From IMG/VR virus record IMGVR_UViG_3300004369_000751, positions 1 through 60,202 of that record: DNA of 60,202 nucleotides. One strand, written 5' to 3'. Below are positions 1,196-58,966 of the stretch, one piece after another (the first letter of the stretch is position 1; each line of letters begins with the position of its first letter). The notes under the pieces were generated by a model. That model was not told the DNA's origin. It did not search any database and saw only the letters and a list, made by a program, of their open reading frames with translations. Source of the stretch: a virus. Position numbers and translations under genes: made by a program.

Positions 1196-1354
1196 TGTCA
1201 TATTAATGTCGTTTTTATGACAGTTAAAATACTAATAATCAATAAGATGTCGAAAATGTCGAAAATAAATGTGAAATGAAATAATAAAAAAAAGTTGCGT
1301 GTGATATTAAAATAGAGAGAGATAGGGAAAGAAGAAAATCGACATAATCGACAT
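1196..1354. promoter_or_regulatory. duplicated regulatory element, copy 1 (before groEL)
   Basis: From left to right the element has a 27-bp inverted repeat TGTCAT...ATGACA (1196-1222), two ATGTCG sites 9 bp apart in tandem ATGTCGAAA units (1247-1264), an AT-rich then purine-rich segment, and two inverted sites CGACAT 9 bp apart (1340-1345, 1349-1354). The second copy at 50527-50686 repeats this plan with the same spacings. The right-hand pair ends 2 bp before the -33 TTG of the groEL promoter, so a protein bound there would be expected to affect groEL transcription. Operator and origin are both possible roles. Confidence 0.7.
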
Positions 1355-1356
1355 TG

Positions 1357-1387
1357 TTGTTTGGTATAAATCTTTTGCATATATTTG
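1357..1387 (+). promoter_or_regulatory. groEL promoter (TTG-N20-TATATTTG)
   Basis: A -33 TTG at 1357-1359, a 20-bp spacer and a perfect -7 box TATATTTG at 1380-1387 form a full Bacteroidota promoter. The groEL ATG lies 18 bases downstream. A TTG inside the -7 box is in frame with groEL but cannot be the real start if this promoter is used. Confidence 0.8.
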
Positions 1388-1405: not shown

Positions 1406-3031
1406 ATGAATGAAATTGGATACTCACCCAAGGAGCTTATGTTTGGGGATGATGGTCGCAAGCGGTTGCTTAGTGGCATCAAGAAGATGGCCGGTGCTGT
1501 GAAGAGCACGTTAGGTCCAAGTGGCAACACTGTTCTTATTGAGTCGAACAATCATTTAGGCGGTATGACTGTCACCAAGGATGGTGTTACGGTTGCCAAG
1601 TCTGTTGATTTGTTGGACCCGGTAGAGAACTTAGCGGTAAAGATGATGAAGGAAGCTGCTGACCGGACAGCGACAACGGCCGGTGATGGAACGACAACAG
1701 CGATTGTTCTTACTGAGGCCATGGTTGAGAATGGGATGGCGGTTTTAAATGAGAATCCTTCTTTGAACAGGACCGAGGTTTTGCGTCACATGACGAGTAT
1801 TGTTGGCGAGGTGGTGAACATCCTAAAGTCCCGGAAGAAAAAAGTAACAAAGAAGATGCTCTTAGATGTTGCTACCATCTCCGCCAACAACGATAAGGAG
1901 ATTGGTCGAATCATTGCTGAGGTGTATGGGAAGATTGGTACCGATGGGATTGTCACCGTTGAGAAGTCTCAGAGTTCAGAGACGTATGCTGACGTGTCGC
2001 ATGGGTTTATGGTTGAGCGTGGGTACTCGAGCAACTTGTTTGTGAACGACCAAAAGAGGGACGAGGTGATATACGAGGACGTGATGATATTGGTATCGGA
2101 CTCTGAGATTAGCAACATCCTTCAGATTGAGCAGGTGTTAAAGCCGGTGATATCGGAGAACAAGCGTTTGTTAATCATTGCCCCTTGCAGCACGAATGTG
2201 ATAAACACCTTGGCGGCGAACAAGATTAAGAACAACTTGAAGGTGGTTGCAATTCCTCCTCCTCAGTTTGGGTATAAGCAGCACGAGCTTATGAGTGACA
2301 TCGCGGTGAGTGTTGGTGCCACGTACTTTTCTGAGAAGACCGGGGATGATTTGTCGTTGATGACGTTTGCGGACTTGGGTCACGCGAGCAAGGTGGTGGT
2401 GAGTCGCGACAATACGGTGATAGTAAACTCTGCGTTCCGAACAGACTCCGATGAGGTTTCTCAGAGGGTTGCTCAGCTTCGCGGTGCATACGCGGAGGCC
2501 AACAAGAAAGCGGACCGGGACTTCATCTTGAGCAGGATTGCATCTTTGTCCGGTGGAGTAGGGGTGATATACGTAGGTGGAAACACTGACATTGAGCAGA
2601 AGGAGTTGTATGACCGGGTGGACGATGCGGTGTGTGCTGTACGCAGTGCGCTTGAGGAGGGGATTCTTCCCGGTTCGGGCCGAGCTCTGCACTACATCTC
2701 TTCTGAGTTGGCAGACAGGAGTTCGCTTGGCAAGACTCCGGAGTACGATGCGGCCCTTGAGATTATTGTAGCTTCGATTTCTTCTCCATTGAAGCAGATA
2801 CTTGAGAACGCAGGGTACTCCGACTTTAGCTTGTACTTTGAGAAACCAAACATGGGGCCATCTGATGGTGTTTGCTTGAAGACGATGAGGGAGGGGGACT
2901 TGTTTTCTCTTGGTGTTGTCGACCCGATGAAGGTTACGAGGAGTGCGATTCAGAACGCGGTGAGTGTGGCAACTACAATTCTTAGCACCAATGCCATTAT
3001 CACTATGGCTCGCTCTTACGAAACCCAATAA
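1406..3031 (+). CDS. groEL: phage-encoded chaperonin GroEL
   Basis: This is a 541-aa Hsp60 chaperonin, near the usual length, expected to form the folding cage with a GroES lid. The N-terminal GPSGNTV and GDGTTTA nucleotide-binding motifs are present. The RVDDAVCAVRSALEEG segment carries the aspartate equivalent to GroEL Asp398 needed for ATP hydrolysis. The later PGSG replaces the usual GGG. The Gly-Gly-Met tail of bacterial GroEL is missing, as the protein ends after a normal last helix. The ATG at 1406 is chosen because the upstream TTG lies inside the promoter. It heads an operon with the DUF3310 gene and groES. Assisting capsid or tail folding is inferred. Confidence 0.95.
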   Translation: MNEIGYSPKELMFGDDGRKRLLSGIKKMAGAVKSTLGPSGNTVLIESNNHLGGMTVTKDGVTVAKSVDLLDPVENLAVKMMKEAADRTATTAGDGTTTAIVLTEAMVENGMAVLNENPSLNRTEVLRHMTSIVGEVVNILKSRKKKVTKKMLLDVATISANNDKEIGRIIAEVYGKIGTDGIVTVEKSQSSETYADVSHGFMVERGYSSNLFVNDQKRDEVIYEDVMILVSDSEISNILQIEQVLKPVISENKRLLIIAPCSTNVINTLAANKIKNNLKVVAIPPPQFGYKQHELMSDIAVSVGATYFSEKTGDDLSLMTFADLGHASKVVVSRDNTVIVNSAFRTDSDEVSQRVAQLRGAYAEANKKADRDFILSRIASLSGGVGVIYVGGNTDIEQKELYDRVDDAVCAVRSALEEGILPGSGRALHYISSELADRSSLGKTPEYDAALEIIVASISSPLKQILENAGYSDFSLYFEKPNMGPSDGVCLKTMREGDLFSLGVVDPMKVTRSAIQNAVSVATTILSTNAIITMARSYETQ

Positions 3032-4204: not shown

Positions 4205-4756
4205 TTATATAAAGATGTGCTCCAATTTTTTTCCTTTCTTAAGATTTTTTTCAGCTTCAAGAGGTTGGAGGTTGGTGTAGTGCAGCAGTTCTTTTACTTG
4301 TTCTTCTGTTGTTGCTAATCCAAGTGGGATGATGTGGTCGATGTGCCAATATTTACCATAGTTATCCCAAGTCATCCCGGGTTTGAATTGCTTTTCAATA
4401 TGAGCTTTAAAATATTCAATGGTGCACCCAATATACTTTATGGTAGGCTTTGATTTTGTGAGCTGATTTTTTCTTAGTACTGATGATACTTGATTCCTGA
4501 GTATCTTTTTCATCATATACAACTTATTGTTTTTGTATTTATTATAGAGTTTTCTTTGATTTTCTCTTACCTTTTCTGCGTTGTTTTTTTTCCACTCTTT
4601 TATGTTTTGGACTTCACAGTCTCTACACATTCTTCTCCTTGATTGGAGATGTGGTTTTGTTTTTCTAAATCGTTCAATAGGCTTATCGATAAGACAAGTT
4701 TTACAAGCCATCGTTGGCTCCAAACTTTTTTTCTTTTCGTTTTCTGTTGAGCTCAT
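4205..4756 (-). CDS. HNH endonuclease with N-terminal zinc ribbon
   Basis: The protein is up to 183 aa. Cys18/Cys21 and Cys44/Cys47 form a likely zinc ribbon. A basic helical linker follows. The C-terminal HNH core carries the WHIDHIIPL motif (His138 and His141), then YTNLQPL with Asn162 and EKNLKKG with Asn171. It should cut DNA and may be a free-standing homing nuclease. The gene is antisense to the surrounding rightward genes and overlaps the winged-helix gene upstream. Starting at the internal Met16 (4711) would reduce that overlap from 56 to 11 bases and is equally plausible. Confidence 0.88.
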   Translation of the reverse strand: MSSTENEKKKSLEPTMACKTCLIDKPIERFRKTKPHLQSRRRMCRDCEVQNIKEWKKNNAEKVRENQRKLYNKYKNNKLYMMKKILRNQVSSVLRKNQLTKSKPTIKYIGCTIEYFKAHIEKQFKPGMTWDNYGKYWHIDHIIPLGLATTEEQVKELLHYTNLQPLEAEKNLKKGKKLEHIFI

Positions 4757-5141
4757 GTATGTAGTTTTTGTATACCTTTTCTGTATATCCTACTTTCTTT
4801 GCAAACATCGGGTTGTTCTTTTGGTCAACCGATATATCTTCTCCATTCAGCTTGCTATACAAGCTGCTAATCATTCTTGTTGCTTTTCTTGAGAGCTTGT
4901 AGATTCTTCCTCTTTCTTTTGGGTAGTCTCGTAGTACTTCAATCCACCCATCTCGAAGAAGGTTGTCAAATCTTTTTTTGTCCCACGACAGCAATTTTTC
5001 GTACTCTTGCACATCTGAGCGCATGAAGTACTTTTCCGAGGACAAGAACAGCAGGTACTCGATGTTTTGTTCTGACAATCCATATTTCTTCTTTATGAAA
5101 AACTTAATAGGTCTCCAATACTTAAGGTAATCGTATTTCAT
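4701..5141 (-). CDS. winged-helix DNA-binding protein
   Basis: This 146-aa protein has helix-helix-wing spacing like MarR/PadR-type regulators. It has a helical N-terminus, a helix-turn-helix around residues 25-65, and a turn with a Lys-Glu-Arg-Gly-Arg wing near residue 80, followed by basic C-terminal helices. I infer a transcription regulator; this is the only clear regulator candidate in the genome. It is the first gene of the two-gene antisense island. Its -7 box faces and nearly overlaps the rightward promoter of the basic-protein cluster, so its expression and that of the cluster may exclude each other. Confidence 0.65.
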   Translation of the reverse strand: MKYDYLKYWRPIKFFIKKKYGLSEQNIEYLLFLSSEKYFMRSDVQEYEKLLSWDKKRFDNLLRDGWIEVLRDYPKERGRIYKLSRKATRMISSLYSKLNGEDISVDQKNNPMFAKKVGYTEKVYKNYIHELNRKRKEKKFGANDGL

Positions 5142-45507: not shown

Positions 45508-45688
45508 CTCTTCCTTTTTGAATGATTATGTTTAGGTCATCTATAATTGCTTGGGCTTCCAACTTTGCCTTGGGCCAATCTTTATCTATCATGTGCTCAT
45601 AGAGCTCATTAAGATAGTCGTGAAGGGTGTTGGTGAACCTTGTCACCTTCGCAACCCTTTCTTTTTCTTTTGGTGATTGCTTTGTCAT
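45497..45688 (-). CDS. small helical protein
   Basis: This 63-aa, charged, helical protein (TRFTNTLHDYLNELYEHMID core) has no recognised domain. It is coupled by overlaps to the DnaA-like gene upstream and the nuclease gene downstream, so it belongs to the replication operon. Confidence 0.65.
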   Translation of the reverse strand: MTKQSPKEKERVAKVTRFTNTLHDYLNELYEHMIDKDWPKAKLEAQAIIDDLNIIIQKGRDAL

Positions 45689-46188
45689 AGTCCGTTGAGT
45701 ATTCTGTTCAGTTTTAATATAAACTCTTGTTCTTTTCCGGGATAAACTCGTGCTCGTATCGTTGCAAAGATATCATCAAACCTTGAATTTTTTGCATTTT
45801 CTTGTTCAATTTTTTCTCTTAGCTCTTTGTTTTCTTTCTCGATGTTTCGAATGTGGTCTACGATGTTCTCGACATCTTCTGTATACCATTTTGATTTAGA
45901 ATCGTTCTCGAGTATTTCTTTGCAGGTCAGATATTTTTCTTGAATTGACTTTAGTTTAAGGTCATGTTCTGCACTGCGTATGTAATGAATTACGCTTGCG
46001 TGTCCCACACCTAAGATTTTTCCTATGTGGATGTAGGTGTATCCTCTTTCTCTTAGGATTGTTGAGAATACCTGACGTGCTGAAACGTAGTCTTGCTTTC
46101 GTGTTCTCTTCTTTATTGAGTCTATGTTGAACACATTCTCCACAATTTGAATCAGTAACGTATCGTCAAAAAAAACTTGATTGTTCAT
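45685..46188 (-). CDS. DnaA-domain-IV-like protein with coiled coil
   Basis: This 167-aa protein resembles the C-terminal DNA-binding domain of DnaA over residues ~30-85. It has VSARQVFSTILRERG, a turn-helix IHIGKILGVGHASVIHYIRS, and conserved HASVIH where DnaA has the DNA-contacting HSTV motif. Residues ~115-140 form a coiled coil that could dimerise it. There is no AAA+ domain, so it may mark an origin or act as a regulator. A second such protein is encoded at 52530-52829. Confidence 0.7.
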   Translation of the reverse strand: MNNQVFFDDTLLIQIVENVFNIDSIKKRTRKQDYVSARQVFSTILRERGYTYIHIGKILGVGHASVIHYIRSAEHDLKLKSIQEKYLTCKEILENDSKSKWYTEDVENIVDHIRNIEKENKELREKIEQENAKNSRFDDIFATIRARVYPGKEQEFILKLNRILNGL

Positions 46189-46681: not shown

Positions 46682-48145
46682 TTAAAGTGTTAAATGTTTC
46701 TTAAAATGAGAAATTGTGTAGTCTTTTTTCTTGCTTACAGCCTTGTAGATTTCATCTTCAATGCCATCCTCAGAAAAAATCCAATAGATGTCGCTCTCCA
46801 ATCTGTCCTTCGTTGTCATCCGGTCTCGGCTCTGCCAATAACTCGTGGCACTGAAGTCAATGTTGAAGTAAACTAAAGCGTCAGCCTGCCTCAAGGATAT
46901 GCCCTCCCTTCCACTTACAATCTGAAGGGCTATCGACTTTTGCGTCTCTTCGAAGAGACTCAAATCTGTGGTAAGCTCATCGCCAAACACCTGAGTCAAA
47001 GCACTCAGCTCCTCCTTGAACTTGTAGAAGATGCCAATCTTCTTGCCGGCAAAGTGATTCTTTATGAACTCCGCTTTGCTTAGGTCAAAGGTCATAGACT
47101 TTCCGCTCTCAAACTTTACCGTTCCGGAGTACATCTGATGTAACTTTTGCATCAACTTCACCGGTGTGTCAGCCAAGATTACCTCATCCTTACCTTGAAG
47201 AACCAATTCCTTCTTAAGCCTTTCAATCATAGCATAAGTCGAGTCCTTCATCCTAACCCTCAGAATGTGCTCCTTTGTTTGCACAACAAAGCCTGCTTGC
47301 TTCTGACTATAGTTGATGGTGTATGGCTCCATTGCCTTTATGATTTCCTCCTTTCCTCGGCTGTAGTCTTTTATCATCACAGAGTTTATCATCTTGGTCT
47401 TCACATCAATGTACGCGTCAGCAAAACGATAGAATGATTTGAAAGAAGAGAATGGGTTGCCGGGGATTCCGTACACCTGATGGTACATCTGAGAGTACGA
47501 CTCCGGTGTTGGTGTTCCGCTCAGGAGAATCACCCGAGGTCTGTGCTTTGCAATCAAATCGCGCACGTCCTTAGCTCTGTTGCTTGGCTTGGGGAAAGCA
47601 CCAAGGCTGTGTGCCTCATCGCAGATGATGACATCCCAACTCTTCTGTTCAACCTTGTGAAGACTCTCGTAGTTGATGGTATCCATGTGGAACTCAGGAG
47701 ACAGCGTAGCGTAGTCACTCTCAATGCTGCCGATTGCTTTCTTCTTGGTTATAAACAGAACAGACTTAGCACCAATCTTCCGGCAGATGCCGAGACTTGT
47801 GAGAGTCTTGCCGGTTCTCACCTCCATGGCCAAGTACAAGAAGTCATGCTCAAAGAGAATCTGAGCACCCTTCTCAATGATGCTTAGCTGATAGTCTCTG
47901 TACTCAAATGAATTCTGTTTCATCTCGGGTAGGTTTTGATAGTGTTCAATGCTTGCACGTATTGATTCAATTGTATGTGTAGGCACGTCATGCTTGAGAG
48001 CCACGACCTCAACCATCTTCCGGCCTTGCTTGACCTTCTTTGTTTTGGTTTTGGTCGCGACACCAAGCAGTAGCCGGAGCAGCTCCACCATCATCATGTT
48101 GCTGTATCCGGGCCTCCTCTCTATTATCTTAATCTCGTTCATCAC
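46682..48145 (-). CDS. SNF2-like superfamily 2 helicase
   Basis: This 487-aa ATP-dependent DNA translocase has Walker A RTGKT (110-114), DEAH (176-179), the LSGTP motif III (208-212) and a late SATSYWQSRDR motif VI. Phage SNF2-like helicases help replication or recombination. It is coupled to the primase-helicase by an ATGA overlap. A 20-bp palindromic element is inserted in frame between the helicase motifs of lobe 2 (46942-46961), where it encodes SLFEETQ. Confidence 0.9.
   Translation of the reverse strand: MMNEIKIIERRPGYSNMMMVELLRLLLGVATKTKTKKVKQGRKMVEVVALKHDVPTHTIESIRASIEHYQNLPEMKQNSFEYRDYQLSIIEKGAQILFEHDFLYLAMEVRTGKTLTSLGICRKIGAKSVLFITKKKAIGSIESDYATLSPEFHMDTINYESLHKVEQKSWDVIICDEAHSLGAFPKPSNRAKDVRDLIAKHRPRVILLSGTPTPESYSQMYHQVYGIPGNPFSSFKSFYRFADAYIDVKTKMINSVMIKDYSRGKEEIIKAMEPYTINYSQKQAGFVVQTKEHILRVRMKDSTYAMIERLKKELVLQGKDEVILADTPVKLMQKLHQMYSGTVKFESGKSMTFDLSKAEFIKNHFAGKKIGIFYKFKEELSALTQVFGDELTTDLSLFEETQKSIALQIVSGREGISLRQADALVYFNIDFSATSYWQSRDRMTTKDRLESDIYWIFSEDGIEDEIYKAVSKKKDYTISHFKKHLTL
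46942..46961. repeat. palindromic element inside the helicase gene
   Basis: GCGTCTCTTCGAAGAGACTC; on the minus strand it reads in frame as SLFEETQ within the second helicase lobe. Confidence 0.88.
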
Positions 48146-50532
48146 TCGTTTGTTTTAAAGCATATCCAACGCCCACCAAAGTCTCGACCTTCCTCCGGAA
48201 TGATTCCGTACTTGAACAATCCATAAGACACAAGCCACTTGTAGAACTTGGTCCTTGAGATTGTCATTCGACTCTTCGGGCCGTAGTCGGGATACTCGCT
48301 GATGAACTCGTAGTATAGCTCTTGCTTGTAGACCCTGATTCCCGGCTCTAACATCTTGGCCGGCTCTGTGTTGTCTACCAATCCGCACCACTCGATGAAA
48401 TCGTGGGTGGTCTCAGCCGATAGCTGACGAATCTTAAGGTTGACAAACTTACTCTTCACAAGACCGGTTGTCAAGTAGTTCTTCAAGCAAGACACCATGT
48501 AGTTGTCGAACTCGCACCAATCATCATCATTCCAATCACCGAAGAACAGTTTCCCGAACTCATCAAATGGAGTGAAGTCCTTGGAGTAGTACTGATGCAG
48601 CTCCAACTCCCACTTACGACGAGCAAATGAGTTGCCTGCTCCCTTGATGGCGTAGTTCGTGGTGATAGCAATCTTCGGAGACTTAGAGAATGGAATCTTT
48701 ATGGCATCCTTGTTCTTCTTCTCAAGGGTGAGTCCCTCCGTTACCACACTGAACAGACGCTCGAAATCAAAGTGCTTCTTCACGTCATCGAAAACAAGAA
48801 TCTGCGTGTCGGCAGACACCAACTGATAGGCGAAAGACCGCTCGAATGCAAAAGACTTTCCATCTATGGTTACCACCTTCTTCATTTGGCTCAGTGCGTT
48901 CATAACTATTCCCTTTCCTGTTCCTCCCTCCGGATTGTCGGAGATGACCTCATCATTCAAGATGATGGCCGGGCAGTAGGAGAAGTTCTTGTAGCCATGC
49001 ATCATGAACCCAATCGTACTACGCATAGACTCAATCCGCTCCGGCTCTGTGTGGCAGATATTCTCGATGAACCTTTTGAAAGCAAAGGATGGAGATGTCT
49101 TACACTGAATGAAGTTCCGGTCAATGACTTGGTCTTTCCATACGTATCCTCCAAGGTCAAGGTAGTCAATCGGTATAACGTCCGACTTTGTAATCTTGAC
49201 AGCGCAGTTCCTGTAGTACAGGTACGCAGTGTCCTTGGTATCCTCGATGAAGTAGATGTCAATGGTGTTAAGCATCGACAAGAACTCATCCTTAAAGAAC
49301 CGAGTTTGGTCAGCGAAGTAGTTGTACACGTTGATGTCATCCAACTCAAGGAGATGATTCAGAACGAAGTCCTTAATCTCCTTCTCGGATGCATGGTCAA
49401 TCAAGTTGTTTGTCACCTTAACGAATACGTAGTTCTTACCTCCCTCGGGGCAGAACTTGTAGAACCCATTGTCCTCCAAGAACTGCTTGAAAAGGATGTG
49501 AACAATCTTGACAGCACCCTTATCGTTCTTAGTCCAAAAGGTTAGCTTGGTGTTCTCATCTTCGATTCTGTTTAGAACAGCATCCACAACATCCCCATCC
49601 AAGTCTGACTCCAATAGCTGAGACCGAACCTCTTTCTTGGATACACCTCTGCGTATCTTGTTTTTTACTTGGTTTACTCGCTCCTCATCCTCGTAGTACT
49701 TCGTTCCGAAGTTTCGGATGTTCTGATATGCTGAGTCTATTGTTCTTACAATCTCCGACTCTGTAAAGTCTGCTGTTGCGTATTGACTCAAGACGTATCC
49801 GGCCAAGCTCTTGTTGACACCGAAGTCATTAAATGCCATGGCCAAGACAAAAGCATTTTGGTTTCTCTGTCCCTCAATCATCGGGTACTTCTTTGTCCAC
49901 CACTTCACGAGTATGTCCACAATCTTGTTCTCATCTGTGATGGGAATGGTAGGTACATCCCGATACTTAATCACCTCGTTGTAGGATGCCTCCTCAATCT
50001 TATCCCAAACGAATGAGTTGTTGTTGATGTAGATGAGTGGGTCATATGACTCGTAGCAAACTCGGCTTATGTTCTTCGTTGCTTTGTCAAAGTATGGGGA
50101 GTTGAAGTGAGACTGAAGTGAGTTGAAGTAGTTGATATGGTTCTCGGGGTCTGCCGGAATCTTTACCAAAACCTTGAGTCCATTTCCGGATGGAGATATA
50201 AAGACCGAGTAAACGTACTTGTCTTTGCTTAGGCTCTCCTTGTCGGACAGCAAGTCCTTTTGCTTCTCGTATCCATCGAAGTCCAAGCAGATGATTCCGC
50301 TGTGCTCGAGGAGGGATGCATCGTTTCTTTTGTTGAACGTGCCTGAGAAACATATGGCCGGAAGCATCTTCTTCATCTCTTGTCGCTCAGGCTTCCTCTT
50401 CTCGTTGCGTATCTTCTTCACCAACTCCTTTGATGCTCCCTCGCGAATGCGATTAAGGATGGAGTCTACCGGCCGGAAGAATGGGGCTGAGGTATCCTTG
50501 ATGTTCTGAAATATTGTGACGTTTGTTGTCAT
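48142..50532 (-). CDS. primase-helicase (BT4734-like primase, SF3-type helicase)
   Basis: This 796-aa protein has an N-terminal part (residues ~50-180) with LEHSGIICLDFDGY, FISPSGNGLKVLVK and NISRVCYESYDP, the pattern of BT4734-type primase domains of Bacteroidota. A middle helical primase-C-like region follows. The helicase has Walker A NPEGGTGKG (~530-538) and Walker B ILVFDDV (~577-583), then an SF3-like sensor KIAITTNYAI. It is the main replication enzyme here, since no DNA polymerase is encoded. Its start codon overlaps the inverted repeat of the second duplicated regulatory element. Confidence 0.87.
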   Translation of the reverse strand: MTTNVTIFQNIKDTSAPFFRPVDSILNRIREGASKELVKKIRNEKRKPERQEMKKMLPAICFSGTFNKRNDASLLEHSGIICLDFDGYEKQKDLLSDKESLSKDKYVYSVFISPSGNGLKVLVKIPADPENHINYFNSLQSHFNSPYFDKATKNISRVCYESYDPLIYINNNSFVWDKIEEASYNEVIKYRDVPTIPITDENKIVDILVKWWTKKYPMIEGQRNQNAFVLAMAFNDFGVNKSLAGYVLSQYATADFTESEIVRTIDSAYQNIRNFGTKYYEDEERVNQVKNKIRRGVSKKEVRSQLLESDLDGDVVDAVLNRIEDENTKLTFWTKNDKGAVKIVHILFKQFLEDNGFYKFCPEGGKNYVFVKVTNNLIDHASEKEIKDFVLNHLLELDDINVYNYFADQTRFFKDEFLSMLNTIDIYFIEDTKDTAYLYYRNCAVKITKSDVIPIDYLDLGGYVWKDQVIDRNFIQCKTSPSFAFKRFIENICHTEPERIESMRSTIGFMMHGYKNFSYCPAIILNDEVISDNPEGGTGKGIVMNALSQMKKVVTIDGKSFAFERSFAYQLVSADTQILVFDDVKKHFDFERLFSVVTEGLTLEKKNKDAIKIPFSKSPKIAITTNYAIKGAGNSFARRKWELELHQYYSKDFTPFDEFGKLFFGDWNDDDWCEFDNYMVSCLKNYLTTGLVKSKFVNLKIRQLSAETTHDFIEWCGLVDNTEPAKMLEPGIRVYKQELYYEFISEYPDYGPKSRMTISRTKFYKWLVSYGLFKYGIIPEEGRDFGGRWICFKTNE

Positions 50533-50686
50533 TTTAATGATGTTTTTATGACACTTAAGTAATTGATTATTAATTATATGTCGATTATGTCGATTTTAAA
50601 GTAAAAGTATATTTAAAAAATACTATTACAGAGAAAGAAAATAAGAGAGAGAGTAGGAGCGTTTATATTTTCGACATTTCCGACAT
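50527..50686. promoter_or_regulatory. duplicated regulatory element, copy 2 (before primase-helicase)
   Basis: The element has TGTCAT...ATGACA as a 27-bp inverted repeat (50527-50553, 24 of 27 positions shared with copy 1), two ATGTCGATT units in tandem (50578-50595), an AT-rich then AGAGAGAG-type purine segment, and CGACAT twice, 9 bp apart (50672-50686). The distance from inverted repeat to first ATGTCG (51 bp) equals copy 1. The outer span is 109 bp against 108. The inverted repeat covers the primase-helicase start codon. No CAAAnnTA box for leftward transcription is seen within it. Confidence 0.72.
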
Positions 50687-50742
50687 GAGAAAAGAATGGG
50701 GGAACGAATCCGCTCCCCCTATCTTTTTAGATTTGGCTTCAG
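50687..50742. other. end of the intergenic region upstream of the primase
   Basis: Together with copy 2 of the element, this makes a 210-bp gap between the SSB-like and primase-helicase genes. No additional gene or canonical promoter is seen. Confidence 0.5.
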
Positions 50743-51033
50743 TTAGAACGGAAGTCCATCGCCATCCACATCAGGAGCATGAGCAGGTTCAGGTGCTGAC
50801 CGAGTCGGTGCTTGGTCTCCACCCTTCGGTTGCCACGTGTCGAGTTCGATGTAGTAGTTACCGCTTCGCGCTTGCTTAATCTGAAGGTTCACCCATCCCT
50901 TCCGCTCGTTGTCCTTCATGAACTGAATGGCCTCATCGACCTTCATGGATAGGCTTCCAACAACGAAGTTGGGTGCTGACTCTTGACGCTTAAATGAAAA
51001 GCCGTCTGCGAAAACTTTTTCTTGTTCGCTCAT
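50743..51033 (-). CDS. SSB-like protein with acidic DGDGLPF tail
   Basis: The start at 51033 is chosen because the upstream part of the frame (to 51108) has no counterpart in usual proteins. The 96-aa product has a compact domain (residues ~20-70, with VNLQIKQARSGNYYIELDTW) and a Pro/Ala linker. It ends with DVDGDGLPF, the acidic tail through which SSB proteins recruit partners. It sits with annealing and exonuclease genes, so single-strand binding is likely. The fold is inferred rather than matched. Confidence 0.65.
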   Translation of the reverse strand: MSEQEKVFADGFSFKRQESAPNFVVGSLSMKVDEAIQFMKDNERKGWVNLQIKQARSGNYYIELDTWQPKGGDQAPTRSAPEPAHAPDVDGDGLPF

Positions 51034-51143: not shown

Positions 51144-51887
51144 TTAGAGCAACTCCATTTCAATGTAGTGGTTGTCCACGCTATCGAATGCTGTCGGCCC
51201 GAAGTATCTGTTGTAGACCTCTATGGCCTGCTCAACCTTCTGCTTGCCGAACATAAGGAACTCCTCTGTTGGCCGGAACACACCGAGCTGTGCTGTCTCC
51301 TTGTCAATGACGTAGAACACCAATGGCTTACCGAATAGCTGCTCGTAGAGCCAAGCCTGAGAGTCGTAGTTGTACGCTCTTGCAGAGTACTTGAATCGGT
51401 GTATGTCTCCGGTGGTCTTTAGGTCAATGAGAATGTTCTCAGAGACAATGTCCGCCTTGCCCTTCCAAAGTTGACCAAGAACCTCCTTCACCTCCGGAAC
51501 TTCGTACTGATTTCCCGGCCGATAGATTTCATCGTAGAAGTGGATGTTGGCTTTCATCACCGATACAAGGTGCTCGATGTTCTCCTTCTCGTGCTGAAGA
51601 AGTGCTATCTCAAGTCCGCTCTCTGCAATAAACTGCTTGTAGATGTTGGTGTTTCTTGTGGACGCATCAACAAATGGAACTGACTCTGCCTTGTCAGGCT
51701 CAATGAGTAGCTGATGAAAGTACCTTCCCTCCAACAAAGACTTGGAATCGTCTCGACGTTTGCGGTAGTCCTTCGGGTTCGCGAGAAGAACTCCTATGTC
51801 GGAGTTCGACAGGAATTTCCTGCCGAACTCTCCATAGTAGTCAGAATCATCTTGGAGTCTTTGGATGATTTGCTGTTTGTTCTTCAT
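51144..51887 (-). CDS. RecE-like exonuclease (PD-(D/E)XK)
   Basis: This 247-aa protein fits the exodeoxyribonuclease VIII/PDDEXK_1 family. It has GRYFHQLL with His58, GKADIV with Asp146, LIDLKTT with Asp155 and Lys157, and a helix with Gln177 in YDSQAWLY. It should resect double-stranded ends 5' to 3' to supply single strands for the DUF1071 annealing protein, whose gene overlaps it by 4 bases. The pair is a phage recombination module. Confidence 0.88.
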   Translation of the reverse strand: MKNKQQIIQRLQDDSDYYGEFGRKFLSNSDIGVLLANPKDYRKRRDDSKSLLEGRYFHQLLIEPDKAESVPFVDASTRNTNIYKQFIAESGLEIALLQHEKENIEHLVSVMKANIHFYDEIYRPGNQYEVPEVKEVLGQLWKGKADIVSENILIDLKTTGDIHRFKYSARAYNYDSQAWLYEQLFGKPLVFYVIDKETAQLGVFRPTEEFLMFGKQKVEQAIEVYNRYFGPTAFDSVDNHYIEMELL

Positions 51888-52519
51888 GACAATAGCTCCT
51901 TAATTTTGTTTGCAACCGCAGGAGCAATGGTGTACTTCCGCTTCAACTGAGCCACAATCTTATCGTATCCCAACTCCTTGTTGGCATTGACGTAGGACAC
52001 AACTCGCTCCCAATTCTCTGTGCCGGTCTTCAGTGACTCAAGGGCAGCAGTGCCACCTGTTGGGTTTGATTGCACATTCGCAGAGGGACGTGGGTTGCCC
52101 ATGGTCGGGGCAGCAGCCGGCTCACCGGGGATGTCCTCTCCGCTCCATAGTTGGATGCCGAGTCCATGCATGGCAATTGCCTTGGCTGTTGAACGCTGAA
52201 TGGATTTGTTTACATCCGTTGCAGTAATCTTCTCAACAGGTATTGGATTGTTGCGGTAGTCCATGATTGGAAGGTAGTCGATGTGCTCAATGCCATCAAC
52301 GGATATTCCAACCTTTACGTATCCTGTTCTGCCATCGGTGAAGAAGTTGAGCCCTGTCGCAGGGTCTTCATACACGTTCCGATTTGCGCTCGGATAGTTT
52401 GACTTTAGCATAGACCATGCCCATGCCCATGAGAGGTAGTCCAAGCCACCTTTGTTCTCGATTTTGTCCCTGAAAGGAACGCTGCTTAAGGTCTCGAAGA
52501 CCGATTTGGTTGTTGCCAT
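51884..52519 (-). CDS. DUF1071-like single-strand annealing protein
   Basis: This 211-aa protein has the DUF1071/Sak-type pattern LDYLSWAWAWSMLKSNYPSA near residue 26. A strand-rich middle with GRTGYVKVGISVDG follows, then NKSIQRSTAKAIAMHGLGI, a linker and a basic C-terminal helix domain. Members anneal complementary strands in phage recombination. It is coupled to the RecE-like exonuclease and close to the SSB-like gene. Confidence 0.85.
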   Translation of the reverse strand: MATTKSVFETLSSVPFRDKIENKGGLDYLSWAWAWSMLKSNYPSANRNVYEDPATGLNFFTDGRTGYVKVGISVDGIEHIDYLPIMDYRNNPIPVEKITATDVNKSIQRSTAKAIAMHGLGIQLWSGEDIPGEPAAAPTMGNPRPSANVQSNPTGGTAALESLKTGTENWERVVSYVNANKELGYDKIVAQLKRKYTIAPAVANKIKELLS

Positions 52520-52529
52520 ATGAATGGAT

Positions 52530-52829
52530 TTAAATGGTTACTGAATTGATTACGTCATCTAAGAAATAGCGGAACTCTTTTTGGTGTGATGACTTTGCCA
52601 CCTTGTTGATTCCATGGATGATTGTTGTGTGAGCCATGTCAATCCCTGCGTACTGAAGTAGCATTGTCTTGATGTCGCACACTCGAATCCCTTTCCTTTT
52701 ACACAGATAGAAGATTGTTTGTCGGGCATCTGACGCGTACCTGCTCCTGCTGTTGACTAACTCGTCTTGGCTGAGTTCGTACATCTCTTTGACGCGCTCA
52801 ACGATTGATTTAAAAACCTTTGAGTTCAT
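52530..52829 (-). CDS. DnaA-domain-IV-like protein
   Basis: This 99-aa protein matches the DNA-binding end of DnaA. It has RYASDARQTIFYLCKRKGIRVC, a helix DIKTMLLQYAGI, and MAHTTIIHGINKV where DnaA has the HSTVIHAI-type contact motif. It lacks an ATPase domain. With the similar protein at 45685-46188, this phage has two stand-alone DnaA-like DNA binders. Expressed from its own promoter at 52879-52909. Confidence 0.78.
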   Translation of the reverse strand: MNSKVFKSIVERVKEMYELSQDELVNSRSRYASDARQTIFYLCKRKGIRVCDIKTMLLQYAGIDMAHTTIIHGINKVAKSSHQKEFRYFLDDVINSVTI

Positions 52830-54188: not shown

Positions 54189-54398
54189 TGTAAAGTTTTG
54201 TGGAATTAAGCATTATAATGTGATTTGGCCGTTCTTTTCTTGCGTTAACAAGCATAAAGGCAGACAAATCATAGTATGGTGTGGTTTAAAAGTCTAAAGA
54301 ACGTCTAAAGAACGTCTAAACGCTTTGCATTTTAGACATTTATTGTGCCATATAAGGGGTGAAACATTGGGAGTTTATCCCTTTAATGACAAGTTAGT
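54189..54398. other. intergenic region with 11-bp tandem repeats
   Basis: A gene-free 210-bp stretch between the tRNA-Leu-like gene and the zincin gene. It holds GTCTAAAGAAC repeated at 54292-54302 and 54303-54313, a partial third copy, and a GTCTAAA...TTTAGAC hairpin at 54314-54337. No promoter is recognised. Confidence 0.6.
54292..54323. repeat. 11-bp tandem repeat (GTCTAAAGAAC)
   Basis: Two exact copies plus a third partial one in tandem. The same GTCTAAA core also appears in the odd anticodon arm of the neighbouring tRNA-like gene. Confidence 0.8.
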
Positions 54399-54507
54399 AG
54401 TCAGGACAGGACTCGAACCTGTATTGCACGTCTGCATCTGTGGAGCTCTATCTCAAGCGTGTCTATTTAGACCTAACACAAGCGTCTACCAATTTCGCCA
54501 CCTGACT
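54399..54507 (-). tRNA. tRNA-Leu-like gene with unusual anticodon arm
   Basis: The minus strand forms a perfect 7-bp acceptor stem (AGTCAGG with CCTGACT), a D arm like class II tRNA-Leu (GGCGAAATTGGTAGACGC), and a T arm ACAGG-TTCGAGT-CCTGT. The region where the anticodon arm should be is abnormal: TGTGT and ACACG enclose a 13-base loop containing a GTCTAAATAGAC hairpin. A long variable region with TGCA-GACG-TGCA follows. The total of 109 bases is too long. It may have an insertion or be a non-decoding tRNA-like RNA. No CCA is encoded. Confidence 0.65.
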
Positions 54508-54547: not shown

Positions 54548-55030
54548 CTATAGATGAGATTTTACCTTCATCCAATATGATTCAGTAGATGCCTTAGACA
54601 TTCCATTGGGCCCTCCGTTCCAACACCGAGCAATTGACTCGTAGTCCAAGTCCTTGTGGTGCTTCTCCACAATCACCATCAGCATATCCACAGACTTGTC
54701 GCAGTCCCACCTGTCATTCATGGTGTATACTTCAGAACCCAATAGTCTGTTGACCTCCCTGACCATGATTGGTCTTATCTGCAAACATCCAACTGCATCC
54801 TCCCTTCTATTGTATGCACATTCGTTGCCCCTACTCTCAACCTGAATCATGCCTGCAATCAATGTGTTAAGAGAATCAACAATCAATCTCGTTTCTGAAT
54901 CAGCAATCATTGTAGAGTCTCTTCGAAGAGACTCTGTTTTGATTGGTTCATGCATTGGATTGTTAGGAATCACAACGAATCCAAAATAGCTGCCAATAAT
55001 TCCGGCAATGATAAAAGAGATTGTCTTCAT
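54548..55030 (-). CDS. membrane-anchored lytic transglycosylase
   Basis: This 160-aa protein has an N-terminal transmembrane or signal helix (residues 4-22). The SLT-type domain has catalytic Glu65-Ser66 in IQVESRG, GCLQI (81-85), and a late ARCWNGGP (135-141) in place of the usual AYNGG. It should cleave the glycan backbone of peptidoglycan from the periplasmic side. It lies in the leftward arm, far from the amidase-spanin-holin cassette. A palindromic element lies in its coding region (54913-54934). Confidence 0.85.
   Translation of the reverse strand: MKTISFIIAGIIGSYFGFVVIPNNPMHEPIKTESLRRDSTMIADSETRLIVDSLNTLIAGMIQVESRGNECAYNRREDAVGCLQIRPIMVREVNRLLGSEVYTMNDRWDCDKSVDMLMVIVEKHHKDLDYESIARCWNGGPNGMSKASTESYWMKVKSHL
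54913..54934. repeat. palindromic element inside the transglycosylase gene
   Basis: AGAGTCTCTTCGAAGAGACTCT, a perfect 22-bp palindrome, falls in the linker between membrane anchor and catalytic domain. It reads ESLRRDS, a different frame from the other coding copies. Confidence 0.88.
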
Positions 55031-56913: not shown

Positions 56914-57174
56914 TTAAAGGTTATTGTAATTGATTGATTTTTTAATTCTGTAGTAGTCATAAACATCTAATTCGTAGATGTCTCCCAAGTCTTCTTCGCT
57001 GACATACATTCTCTCGACCTGCTCACCTGAATGAAAGTGCAGGTAAAGGTCATACAATGTAGGGTAGATGATGGCTTCTCCATCTTTGATTAAGACGTGA
57101 ATGGCTGCTCCATTGTTATCGTGCCTGACTTCGTATGTCCTGTCGGCTTTGTCAAAATGCTCGTTATGAATCAT
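56914..57174 (-). CDS. unknown 86-aa protein
   Basis: A beta-rich acidic protein with RTYEVRHDNNGAAIHVLIKD at the start and an aromatic, Asp-rich end. It precedes the 56900 gene by 13 bases and shares its leader type. No family is recognised. Confidence 0.6.
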   Translation of the reverse strand: MIHNEHFDKADRTYEVRHDNNGAAIHVLIKDGEAIIYPTLYDLYLHFHSGEQVERMYVSEEDLGDIYELDVYDYYRIKKSINYNNL

Positions 57175-57195
57175 GGTTTCTAAGGTATTAAGTGA

Positions 57196-57699
57196 TTACT
57201 CTTTTTCGTAGATAGCTTCGCCATTGGAGAATCTTCCGACACAACGCAAAGGTGTGCATCCGATTGTCCTGAATTGTGACTCAATTGATTGCGACAAATT
57301 GTAAAAATCCAAATGCATCTTCCTGTTAATCATGTCAGCCAATAGCTGCATAACATCAGGATGAGTCTCATCATTTACTGCATAGGAATTGCGCTCCATC
57401 ATGTACAAAATCATGTCTGTACTCGGCAATTCATCGGCATCAATTTCGCCAAAGCCATCGATGTAAAAGTTTAGTCTCCAATCCAAATTTCCTCCTCCAT
57501 AATATCCATGTCGCAAGACTGCCTTTACTTCAACAGAGAAATCAATTGATTCTCCATTTTCGGGATTGTAAACTACATTGTGCGAAACGTGACTCCAATC
57601 ATCAAAATCAAGTCCATCGTTCCGCAGGTCTTCGATTTGGTCATTGTCAAGAGCAAAGATTCTGCTCGCATTTTTGTTTTCAAAATTAGCTGTTGCCAT
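57196..57699 (-). CDS. unknown 167-aa protein
   Basis: An acidic protein with an Asp-rich N-terminal region, a Gly/Tyr-rich strand hairpin (LRHGYYGGGNLDWRLNFYID) and a helical C-terminal half. Its leader carries tandem TTAATCAC words ending 9 bases before the ATG. No domain is recognised. Confidence 0.6.
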   Translation of the reverse strand: MATANFENKNASRIFALDNDQIEDLRNDGLDFDDWSHVSHNVVYNPENGESIDFSVEVKAVLRHGYYGGGNLDWRLNFYIDGFGEIDADELPSTDMILYMMERNSYAVNDETHPDVMQLLADMINRKMHLDFYNLSQSIESQFRTIGCTPLRCVGRFSNGEAIYEKE

Positions 57700-57728
57700 A
57701 ATTGATAAGTGATTAAGTGATTAAGTGA

Positions 57729-58034
57729 TTATTTGCGATTGTCTTCAATTTCTCCATTGGAAGTCTCATAGTAGAGTACGTTACCATTGGCATCTTGCTG
57801 ATACTTTCCACAATAGCCATTGGAATCTTCAAAGCAGAGGGCTTTGCCATTGGCATCGTACTGCCGCTTTATCCAAAAGCCATTGGAAGTCTCAAAGTAG
57901 ATTACGTTACCATTGGCATCGTATTCGTACTTCTCCCAATAGCCATCGGAATTCTCAGAGTAGATTACTTTGCCATTGGAATCATAAAGCCGAAAGGGGA
58001 ATTCTTTTGCATTTAATTGATTTGCAATTGTCAT
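57729..58034 (-). CDS. YD-like repeat protein, copy 1
   Basis: This 101-aa protein consists almost entirely of ~20-residue repeats with the pattern YDANGNVIYFETSNGFWIK. It resembles Rhs/YD repeats and a repeat known in small phage proteins. It is a close paralogue of the protein at 58563-58931: same start (MTIANQLNAKEFPFRLYD vs MTIAEQLNATEFPFRLYD) and same end (DNRK). Repeat number differs. A tRNA-like element lies 35 bases upstream of its start. Function unknown; repeat proteins of this kind often bind partners. Confidence 0.8.
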   Translation of the reverse strand: MTIANQLNAKEFPFRLYDSNGKVIYSENSDGYWEKYEYDANGNVIYFETSNGFWIKRQYDANGKALCFEDSNGYCGKYQQDANGNVLYYETSNGEIEDNRK

Positions 58035-58069
58035 GATTGATAAGTGATTAAGTGATTAAAAAAAGTTAG

Positions 58070-58135
58070 CTGTGGCATCGGAATCGAACCGACCTTGCGT
58101 CTCTTCGAAGAGACTCTCAATCACCATGGCCACAA
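58070..58135 (-). ncRNA. tRNA-like leader element 2
   Basis: This 66-base element has a complete 7-bp acceptor-like stem (TTGTGGC with GCCACAG, one T-G pair), a T arm GTCGG-TTCGATT-CCGAT, and the palindromic hairpin GAGTCTCTTCGAAGAGACGC in the place of the anticodon arm. There is no D arm. CTAAC and a seven-T run follow, then the start of the YD-like gene 35 bases on. The length and layout match element 3. Confidence 0.6.
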
Positions 58136-58149
58136 GACCAATGAGCATC

Positions 58150-58542
58150 TTACTCCTGAGAAGGGAATTTGAAATACTGAAGGTCAAAAGCATCTACGTC
58201 TCCATACCAATCATGTCTGTAGATAAGATGTCCTTCCCATGACAAACCTACCTGATAAGCAAATGATATGGCATCCTGAGTAGTGTATGCAATCAGGGAA
58301 GACATGAATCTTCTGACATTCAAGTTAAAGCCAATGGTATCAGGTGAACAATCACTGATGAAGCTAACCACAAAGGTCTCTTCGGGTTTGCCATCCCATT
58401 CACCTAAATGAGTCTCTACAATGGCGTCCCATAGGCTAAAATGTATGCCTGCCAATTCCATTACTCTGCGGAATTCAGCATCCGAAAATGCTCCAAAGGG
58501 ATTGTTCTCCTTCCCGATGTTTAAAATTACTTGATTGTTCAT
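58150..58542 (-). CDS. unknown 130-aa protein
   Basis: A soluble alpha/beta protein with Trp-rich parts (HFSLWDAIVETHLGEWDGKP) and a C-terminal HDWYGDVDAFDLQYFKFP. No domain is recognised. It lies between the two YD-repeat paralogues, each preceded by a tRNA-like element, so the whole gene-plus-element block looks duplicated around it. Confidence 0.6.
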   Translation of the reverse strand: MNNQVILNIGKENNPFGAFSDAEFRRVMELAGIHFSLWDAIVETHLGEWDGKPEETFVVSFISDCSPDTIGFNLNVRRFMSSLIAYTTQDAISFAYQVGLSWEGHLIYRHDWYGDVDAFDLQYFKFPSQE

Positions 58543-58562
58543 AACTGATAGGTATTAAGTGA

Positions 58563-58931
58563 TTATTTGCGATTGTCTGTGATGTGGCCATTGGAATTCT
58601 CAGAGTAGATTACTTTGCCATTGGCATCGCGCTGATACTTCGCCCAATAGCTATTGGAATCTTCAAAGGAGAGGGCTTTGCCATTGGCATCGTACTGCCT
58701 CTTTATCCAAAAGCCCTTGGAATCTTCGTAGTAGATTACTTTACCATTGGCATCGTATTGATACTTTCCCCAATAGCCATCGGAATCTTCAGAGGAGAGT
58801 ACTTTGCCATTGGAATCGTACTCTAACTTCCTCCAATAGCCATCGGAATCTTCATAGTAGATTTCGTTCCCATTGGCATCATAAAGCCGAAAGGGGAATT
58901 CTGTTGCATTTAATTGTTCTGCGATTGTCAT
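58563..58931 (-). CDS. YD-like repeat protein, copy 2
   Basis: This 122-aa paralogue of the protein at 57729-58034 has one more ~20-residue repeat (five or so in total). Consensus units such as YDANGKVIYYEDSDGYWGK have recurrent Asn-Gly turns and Tyr/Trp. DNA repeats (CCATTGGCATCGTA-type words) underlie the protein repeats, so unit gain and loss by slippage is likely. A tRNA-like element lies 35 bases upstream of its start. Confidence 0.8.
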   Translation of the reverse strand: MTIAEQLNATEFPFRLYDANGNEIYYEDSDGYWRKLEYDSNGKVLSSEDSDGYWGKYQYDANGKVIYYEDSKGFWIKRQYDANGKALSFEDSNSYWAKYQRDANGKVIYSENSNGHITDNRK

Positions 58932-58966
58932 GATTGATAAGTGATTAAAGGGTTAAAAAAAGTTAG

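Follow-up and report, generated by a model that had tools for sequence, protein, structure and literature searches.

The Bacillus phage SPP1 carries two similar origins of replication, oriL and oriR, which lie 12-13 kb apart on the circle and combine repeats, bound by gp38 (G38P), with an AT-rich unwinding region (PMC6316719, PMC3485210). Replication fires from oriL, whereas oriR-bound gp38 has been proposed to arrest the fork and thereby initiate recombination-dependent replication (PMC6316719, PMC3485210). The present analysis concerns a duplicated element in the IMG/VR virus record IMGVR_UViG_3300004369_000751, whose whole stretch of 60,202 nucleotides was analysed and is termed the window below; one copy of the element adjoins a primase/helicase gene (copy P) and the other adjoins groEL (copy G). 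Two distant repeat-bearing cis sites are also a feature of P4, whose ori and crr act with the alpha protein in an SF3-type primase/helicase replicon. Sequence comparisons suggest that the two elements probably serve a Bacteroidota-type podovirus as twin replication origins, read by proteins resembling domain IV of DnaA, given that two proteins resembling in shape the portion of DnaA that reads its boxes are encoded by these phages. The SPP1-like layout, taken together with a Sak annealase, an exonuclease and an SSB-like protein, leads to the same proposal.

The window represents a circular phage genome of ~60.1 kb (with a 99-bp terminal repeat), and the two copies are therefore ~10.8 kb apart across the circular junction and not 49 kb apart. 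Both point the same way. Copy P has an SSB-like gene with its terminator-like hairpin on one side and the start codon of the leftward primase/helicase on the other, and copy G occupies the gap between a small open reading frame and groEL, upstream of the latter. Their component features are as follows.

50554..50691, minus strand: the whole primase-side element (copy P), from its match to profile R1; conserved in relatives
50672..50686, minus strand: box pair A of copy P, reversed, with a 9-bp period, from the window sequence and the consensus of relatives
50594..50671, minus strand: AT/pyrimidine-rich tract of copy P, a candidate DNA unwinding element; among 110-bp segments, the window's least stable one falls in copy P
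50578..50592, minus strand: box pair B of copy P, reading TCGACATAATCGACAT on this strand, with a 9-bp period, from the window sequence
50556..50568, minus strand: IHF-consensus-like site of copy P, AATCAATTACTTA (consensus WATCARNNNNTTR), from consensus enrichment and a fixed offset in relatives
50527..50553, minus strand: cluster C of copy P, here a 27-bp repeat overlapping the primase start codon, from the window sequence; an 11-bp direct cluster in relatives
50698..50719, unstranded: terminator-like GC hairpin before copy P and after the SSB-like gene, from sequence
1225..1356, minus strand: the groEL-side element (copy G), oriented as copy P, from its profile match
1340..1354, minus strand: box pair A of copy G, from the window sequence
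1262..1339, minus strand: AT-rich tract of copy G, pyrimidine-rich on the minus strand, from sequence and profile
1247..1261, minus strand: box pair B of copy G, from the window sequence
1231..1246, plus strand: IHF-like segment of copy G, ACTAATAATCAATAAG, inverted and incomplete in the window's clade, read from the sequence
1196..1222, minus strand: cluster C of copy G, from the window sequence
1380..1387, plus strand: TATATTTG, a -7 element of Bacteroidota type and probable groEL promoter adjoining pair A of copy G, from sequence

The initial annotation had described this duplication accurately. The 27-bp TGTCAT...ATGACA repeat is present at 1196-1222 and 50527-50553 with 24 of 27 positions identical, ATGTCG pairs with a 9-bp period follow at 1247 and 50578, in both cases 51 bp from where the repeat begins, and CGACAT pairs at 1340 and 50672 complete outer spans of 108 and 109 bp. 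Local alignment of the two regions gives a score of 127, compared with 52 +/- 6.6 (maximum 72) for shuffles, and ATGTCG-N3-ATGTCG occurs in the window only at these two sites against an expectation of ~0.003 per strand. A sequence-only covariance model (profile R1), built from 38 primase-side elements and no groEL-side copies and run on whole records at E <= 1e-5, recovers copy P at 50556-50691 (E 3.4e-18; this copy is one of the 38 training sequences) and also copy G (E 5.9e-11), which was absent from the training set.

Searches with the primase and GroEL uncovered ~300 related loci, a number in which many contigs are represented by several overlapping pieces, and at least ~600 relatives of the primase are found in IMG/VR. 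The element lies upstream of the primase in nearly all loci of the first set and in many of the more distant ones, and in 33 of 35 relatives (a set including one deposited genome) there are two copies, invariably oriented alike and ~9-15 kb apart. The exceptions are Elemovirus, which has none, and the genome G032, which gives no model match in either place; visual inspection of the latter nonetheless reveals CGTCA boxes in an element on its groEL side. In a distant relative (L422, ~4700-4890; 46% in the primase), CAACA/TGTTG pairs with a 9-bp period near the primase perhaps reflect the same design with another box. Direct copies bracketing the early region might also be expected of a partition, packaging or site-specific recombination site, and this we regard as very improbable, as the copies are diverged in their middle sequence and distant from the structural genes, a Pfam scan of 27 proteins of the window (a subset of the genes) revealed no recombinase or partition protein, and the arrangement of periodic boxes around a tract is atypical of such sites.

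Across relatives the element reads, in the direction of the primase, as the reversed pair A, a C-containing AT/pyrimidine tract, the forward pair B, a site resembling the IHF consensus, and a cluster (C) of forward boxes with an 11-bp period. Pairs A and B share a 9-bp period and are inverted about the tract, with an A-to-B distance of 91-94 bp in 43 of the 52 elements in which it could be measured; pair B itself is present in 83% of elements compared with 3% of shuffles. The IHF consensus WATCARNNNNTTR, overlooked in the initial annotation, is matched exactly in 58% of 99 non-redundant elements of relatives (3% in shuffles), at a fixed offset of 23-24 bp past the start of pair B. Cluster C consists of direct boxes running up to the start codon, with 62 of 76 spacings in relatives being 11 bp; the 27-bp inverted repeat, earlier taken to be part of the element, holds this place in the window and is a peculiarity of its clade. 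The earlier inference that spacing is what is selected is too narrow, since conservation extends to the sequence and orientation of the boxes, to the AT/pyrimidine content, and to both the 11-bp cluster and the IHF-like site. Runs of [CT]T[AT] triplets, comparable to DnaA-trios, are found in 66% of elements and 10% of shuffles; given their pyrimidine-rich surroundings, and as such trios would require an AAA+ DnaA, they were given no weight as proof.

The principal competing explanation arises from the flanks of the two copies, with copy P abutting the primase start and a promoter-like motif abutting copy G. Here the elements would be transcriptional control modules, with a phage regulator on the boxes and bending or looping between clusters or copies timing the primase operon and groEL. 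In line with this, copy P is preceded by a terminator-like hairpin and followed by the primase start codon, over which cluster C extends, and a comparable GC hairpin with a T run is apparent by eye in most relatives. The TATATTTG motif next to pair A of copy G agrees with it too, the Bacteroidota -7 consensus being TAnnTTTG. Upstream of the primase, in contrast, this promoter motif shows no enrichment (7% of elements versus 14% of shuffles), and copy G is antisense to both groEL and the adjoining small reading frame in the relatives examined, while both copies share one orientation. A reading as an RNA leader was rejected, as the RNAalifold consensus predicts no pair and the element has no Rfam match.

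A further argument against transcriptional control comes from duplex stability. When 110-bp segments were ranked by nearest-neighbour stability in 13 genomes, copy P proved to be the least stable segment in 8 and among the top nine in all 13, while copies P and G together occupied the first two ranks in 5. In G004 the two least stable segments start at copy P and beside copy G; in the window copy P ranks first, a segment starting at 1138, just to the left of copy G, ranks second, and copy G itself ranks 14. By predicted stability an AT-rich unwinding element lies beside the boxes, and a tract that is the least stable DNA of the genome goes beyond the needs of an operator. Transcriptional control appears to be a rather unlikely account of the element, with perhaps a fifth of our expectation resting on it.

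The boxes, of the TAATCGACA type, have the consensus T(A/T)AT(C/T)GACA and resemble the DnaA box TTWTNCACA, from which they differ mainly at position 6 in having G or A instead of C. Across genomes, versions with GACA, AACA, AGCA and CGTCA are seen, and as a result of this variation the exact ATGTCG pattern, for which the initial annotation had proposed a search in relatives, fails in most of them; the arrangement it described is conserved. Switches to AACA or AGCA occur in both copies of a genome. Correspondingly, the 6-mer similarity of copies P and G within a genome is 0.267, compared with 0.172 +/- 0.014 for permuted pairs (none of 5000 as high), a comparison that only partly separates concerted change from relatedness; a cruder count of box classes in the two copies, with fewer variant genomes, gives a rank correlation of 0.22 (p 0.32). 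The sharing of box variants by both copies of a genome suggests that one factor probably reads both, a single trans-acting reader being equally expected under transcriptional control.

Two candidates for such a reader flank the primase, the short one ~2.3 kb upstream and the long one ~4.3 kb downstream in the window, with a similar placement in most relatives. These and the neighbouring genes are listed below.

52530..52829, minus strand: short protein consisting of DnaA domain IV only, a candidate box reader, from PF08299 and its predicted fold; syntenic in relatives
45685..46188, minus strand: long DnaA domain-IV protein, a candidate box reader, from PF08299; syntenic in relatives
48142..50532, minus strand: primase/helicase with a BT4734-like N-terminal domain and a DUF5906 helicase-like region, from Pfam and PHROG 28855
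50743..51033, minus strand: SSB-like small protein upstream of copy P, from its position and an acidic C-terminus ending in GLPF
51144..51887, minus strand: PDDEXK exonuclease-like protein (DUF3799), from Pfam
51884..52519, minus strand: Sak-type single-strand annealing protein, from PF06378 (E 9e-32)
1406..3031, plus strand: groEL (chaperonin), from PF00118 (E 1.3e-52)

The DnaA-like proteins have 99 and 167 amino acids, and PF08299 is the only DnaA domain matched in them. The model of the short protein is confident (predicted local distance difference test, pLDDT, 91.9), and its PDB matches with probability 1.00 are all DnaA, including 1J1V, in which DnaA is bound to its box, and 8BTG, a basal unwinding complex; a profile search agrees that it represents domain IV, and it is predicted to adopt the six-helix fold that binds the DnaA box. 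Of the DnaA residues that contact bases, namely R399, D433, H434 and T435, H434 is mostly kept; at 399 the short protein mostly has K and the long protein R, 433 is variable, and 435 is S, T, A or P. The phage records searched include no isolate encoding DnaA-like proteins and no cultured phage with both parts of the system. The model of the primase (pLDDT 51.6) is too poor for seeking an origin-binding domain, and no solved structural homologue of it was found; the SSB-like protein matches no family in Pfam or PHROG. Of the two possibilities raised by the initial annotation, an origin with inverted iterons around an unwinding region emerges as the best reading, since the arrangement with its near-constant spacing is kept, the least stable DNA coincides with it in most of the genomes tested, and DnaA-type proteins are encoded alongside; the looping operator survives as the rival discussed above.

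The anatomy, its conservation, the two-copy layout, the low predicted duplex stability, the shared box type and the co-encoded predicted DnaA domain-IV fold are directly supported, and from them we infer how binding, bending, melting and helicase entry might proceed and which copy might fire. The short protein, the long protein or both would bind the 9-bp boxes, and a protein of the IHF/HU type would probably bend the DNA between pair B and cluster C, bringing the bound clusters into contact. Melting would then take place in the AT/pyrimidine tract that the inverted pairs A and B enclose, and the primase/helicase, encoded next to it, would enter there. One copy may fire first, with the other serving either as a second origin or, in the manner suggested for SPP1, as a barrier at which stalled forks give rise to recombination-dependent replication into concatemers. 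A more specific scenario, to which we give somewhat less than even credence, is that this widespread environmental phage lineage took the box-reading domain of DnaA without the ATPase, as two proteins, and evolved a pair of oriC-like origins whose box code has shifted and varies in concert between them, melting being left to the SF3-type primase/helicase.

Several observations weigh against twin origins read by DnaA-like proteins. The likeness to the DnaA box is modest, at 6-7 of 8 specified positions, and as a likeness of at least 7 has a chance of ~2.6%, it constitutes a lead and not proof; exact canonical boxes (TTWTNCACA) are not enriched, being found in 2% of elements versus 4% of shuffles. 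The Pfam scan detected no AAA+ domain in the DnaA-like proteins of the phage, and hence they could not melt DNA as DnaA does. Covariation of their contact residues with box class (G versus A) looks striking for the long protein but is not clean once the primase tree is considered, on which it tracks clade. In 12 of 13 genomes the raw third-position GC skew rises past copy P (p 0.005), but at four-fold sites with the primase excluded the p value is 0.15 and no clean break is seen there. Finally, G032, G062, L413-L417 and L421 have the primase and no copy P. Relatives with groEL and primase but without the paired sites, which the initial annotation had named as evidence against its proposal, are thus found in part, in that the divergent G032 and G062 lack the primase-side copy. 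Most of the relatives devoid of copy P retain DnaA-like proteins; in G062 the boxes and the long protein are present and the short protein was not found.

This distribution suggests that the groEL-side copy may be the older of the two. It also accords with a single origin accompanied by an accessory site, wherein one copy fires and the other acts as a fork barrier, a titration site or, as with ori and crr of P4, an enhancer required in cis: G032 and G062 keep the groEL-side copy, SPP1 oriR has been proposed to be a fork barrier, and Sak annealase, exonuclease and SSB-like genes are encoded. Nevertheless, in most relatives neither copy has lost any part of the anatomy, the unstable tract included, and such a division of labour appears improbable, less so than a partition or recombination site and more so than transcriptional control.

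Some further features of the window and its relatives were recorded. A 22-bp palindrome with a GTCTCTTCGAAGAGAC core, probably a shared terminator or another repeated site, is present in 12 places (e.g. 6730, 20986, 46940, 54913 and 58095). A leader, TCATGATTGATAAGTGATTAAGTGATTAA, is repeated before several early genes at 57171-58956, and 300-bp repeats are found among these genes at 57756, 58590 and 58653; one small early protein (58566-58931, minus strand) has weak matches to RHS and MORN repeats. Dense irregular ACAGCATG / CAGGCAG units are found at 420-700, near the divergence of the left and right gene blocks. A 110-nt Rfam tRNA match at 54398-54507 on the minus strand (37.7 bits), missed by ARAGORN, resembles a leucine tRNA carrying a long insert close to its anticodon loop, possibly an intron or an odd variable arm. 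A protein with a transglycosylase SLT domain is encoded at 54551-55030 (minus strand). In two relatives the groEL matches (G049:C1:52811-54406 and G051:C1:38108-39703) contain one in-frame TAA.

Only a minority of environmental phages have a known origin, and the element provides a searchable mark of likely origins in an environmental lineage. If the proposal of twin origins is correct, these phages use the DNA-reading domain of DnaA alone, with a changed box code; their box variants would form a natural series for testing the co-evolution of initiator and origin, and two-origin phage replication would become testable outside SPP1.

Among known systems, Elemovirus (the Flavobacterium phages vB_FspP_elemo) is cultured, resembles the present phages in genome layout, carries groEL and has a primase with a related N-terminus; it differs in having neither the element nor a DnaA domain-IV protein, and a separate replication initiation gene is annotated in it. 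The sites of P4 differ from the present element in box sequence and spacing. Bacterial oriC and its basal unwinding system, which comprises DnaA boxes, a GC patch, a DnaA-trio and a DNA unwinding element (DUE), resemble the element in the tandem 9-bp boxes beside an unstable AT-rich tract, the IHF-like site and the [CT]T[AT] runs, and the fold of the short protein matches DnaA in the structure of that system (8BTG); the phage version is distinguished by G or A at box position 6, the lack of enrichment of canonical boxes, the lack of a detected AAA+ domain and the presence of two copies per genome. As judged from the published architecture, SPP1 shares the two sites with repeats and an AT-rich region at a comparable spacing (10.8 kb in the window and ~9-15 kb in relatives) and an annealase, exonuclease and SSB in the replication set; for its phage-encoded origin binder there are candidate counterparts here. 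Unlike SPP1, the present phages have boxes resembling those of DnaA with DnaA domain-IV proteins as candidate readers, pairs A and B inverted around the tract, a conserved IHF-like site, and an SF3-like primase/helicase in place of the DnaB-type helicase and loader.
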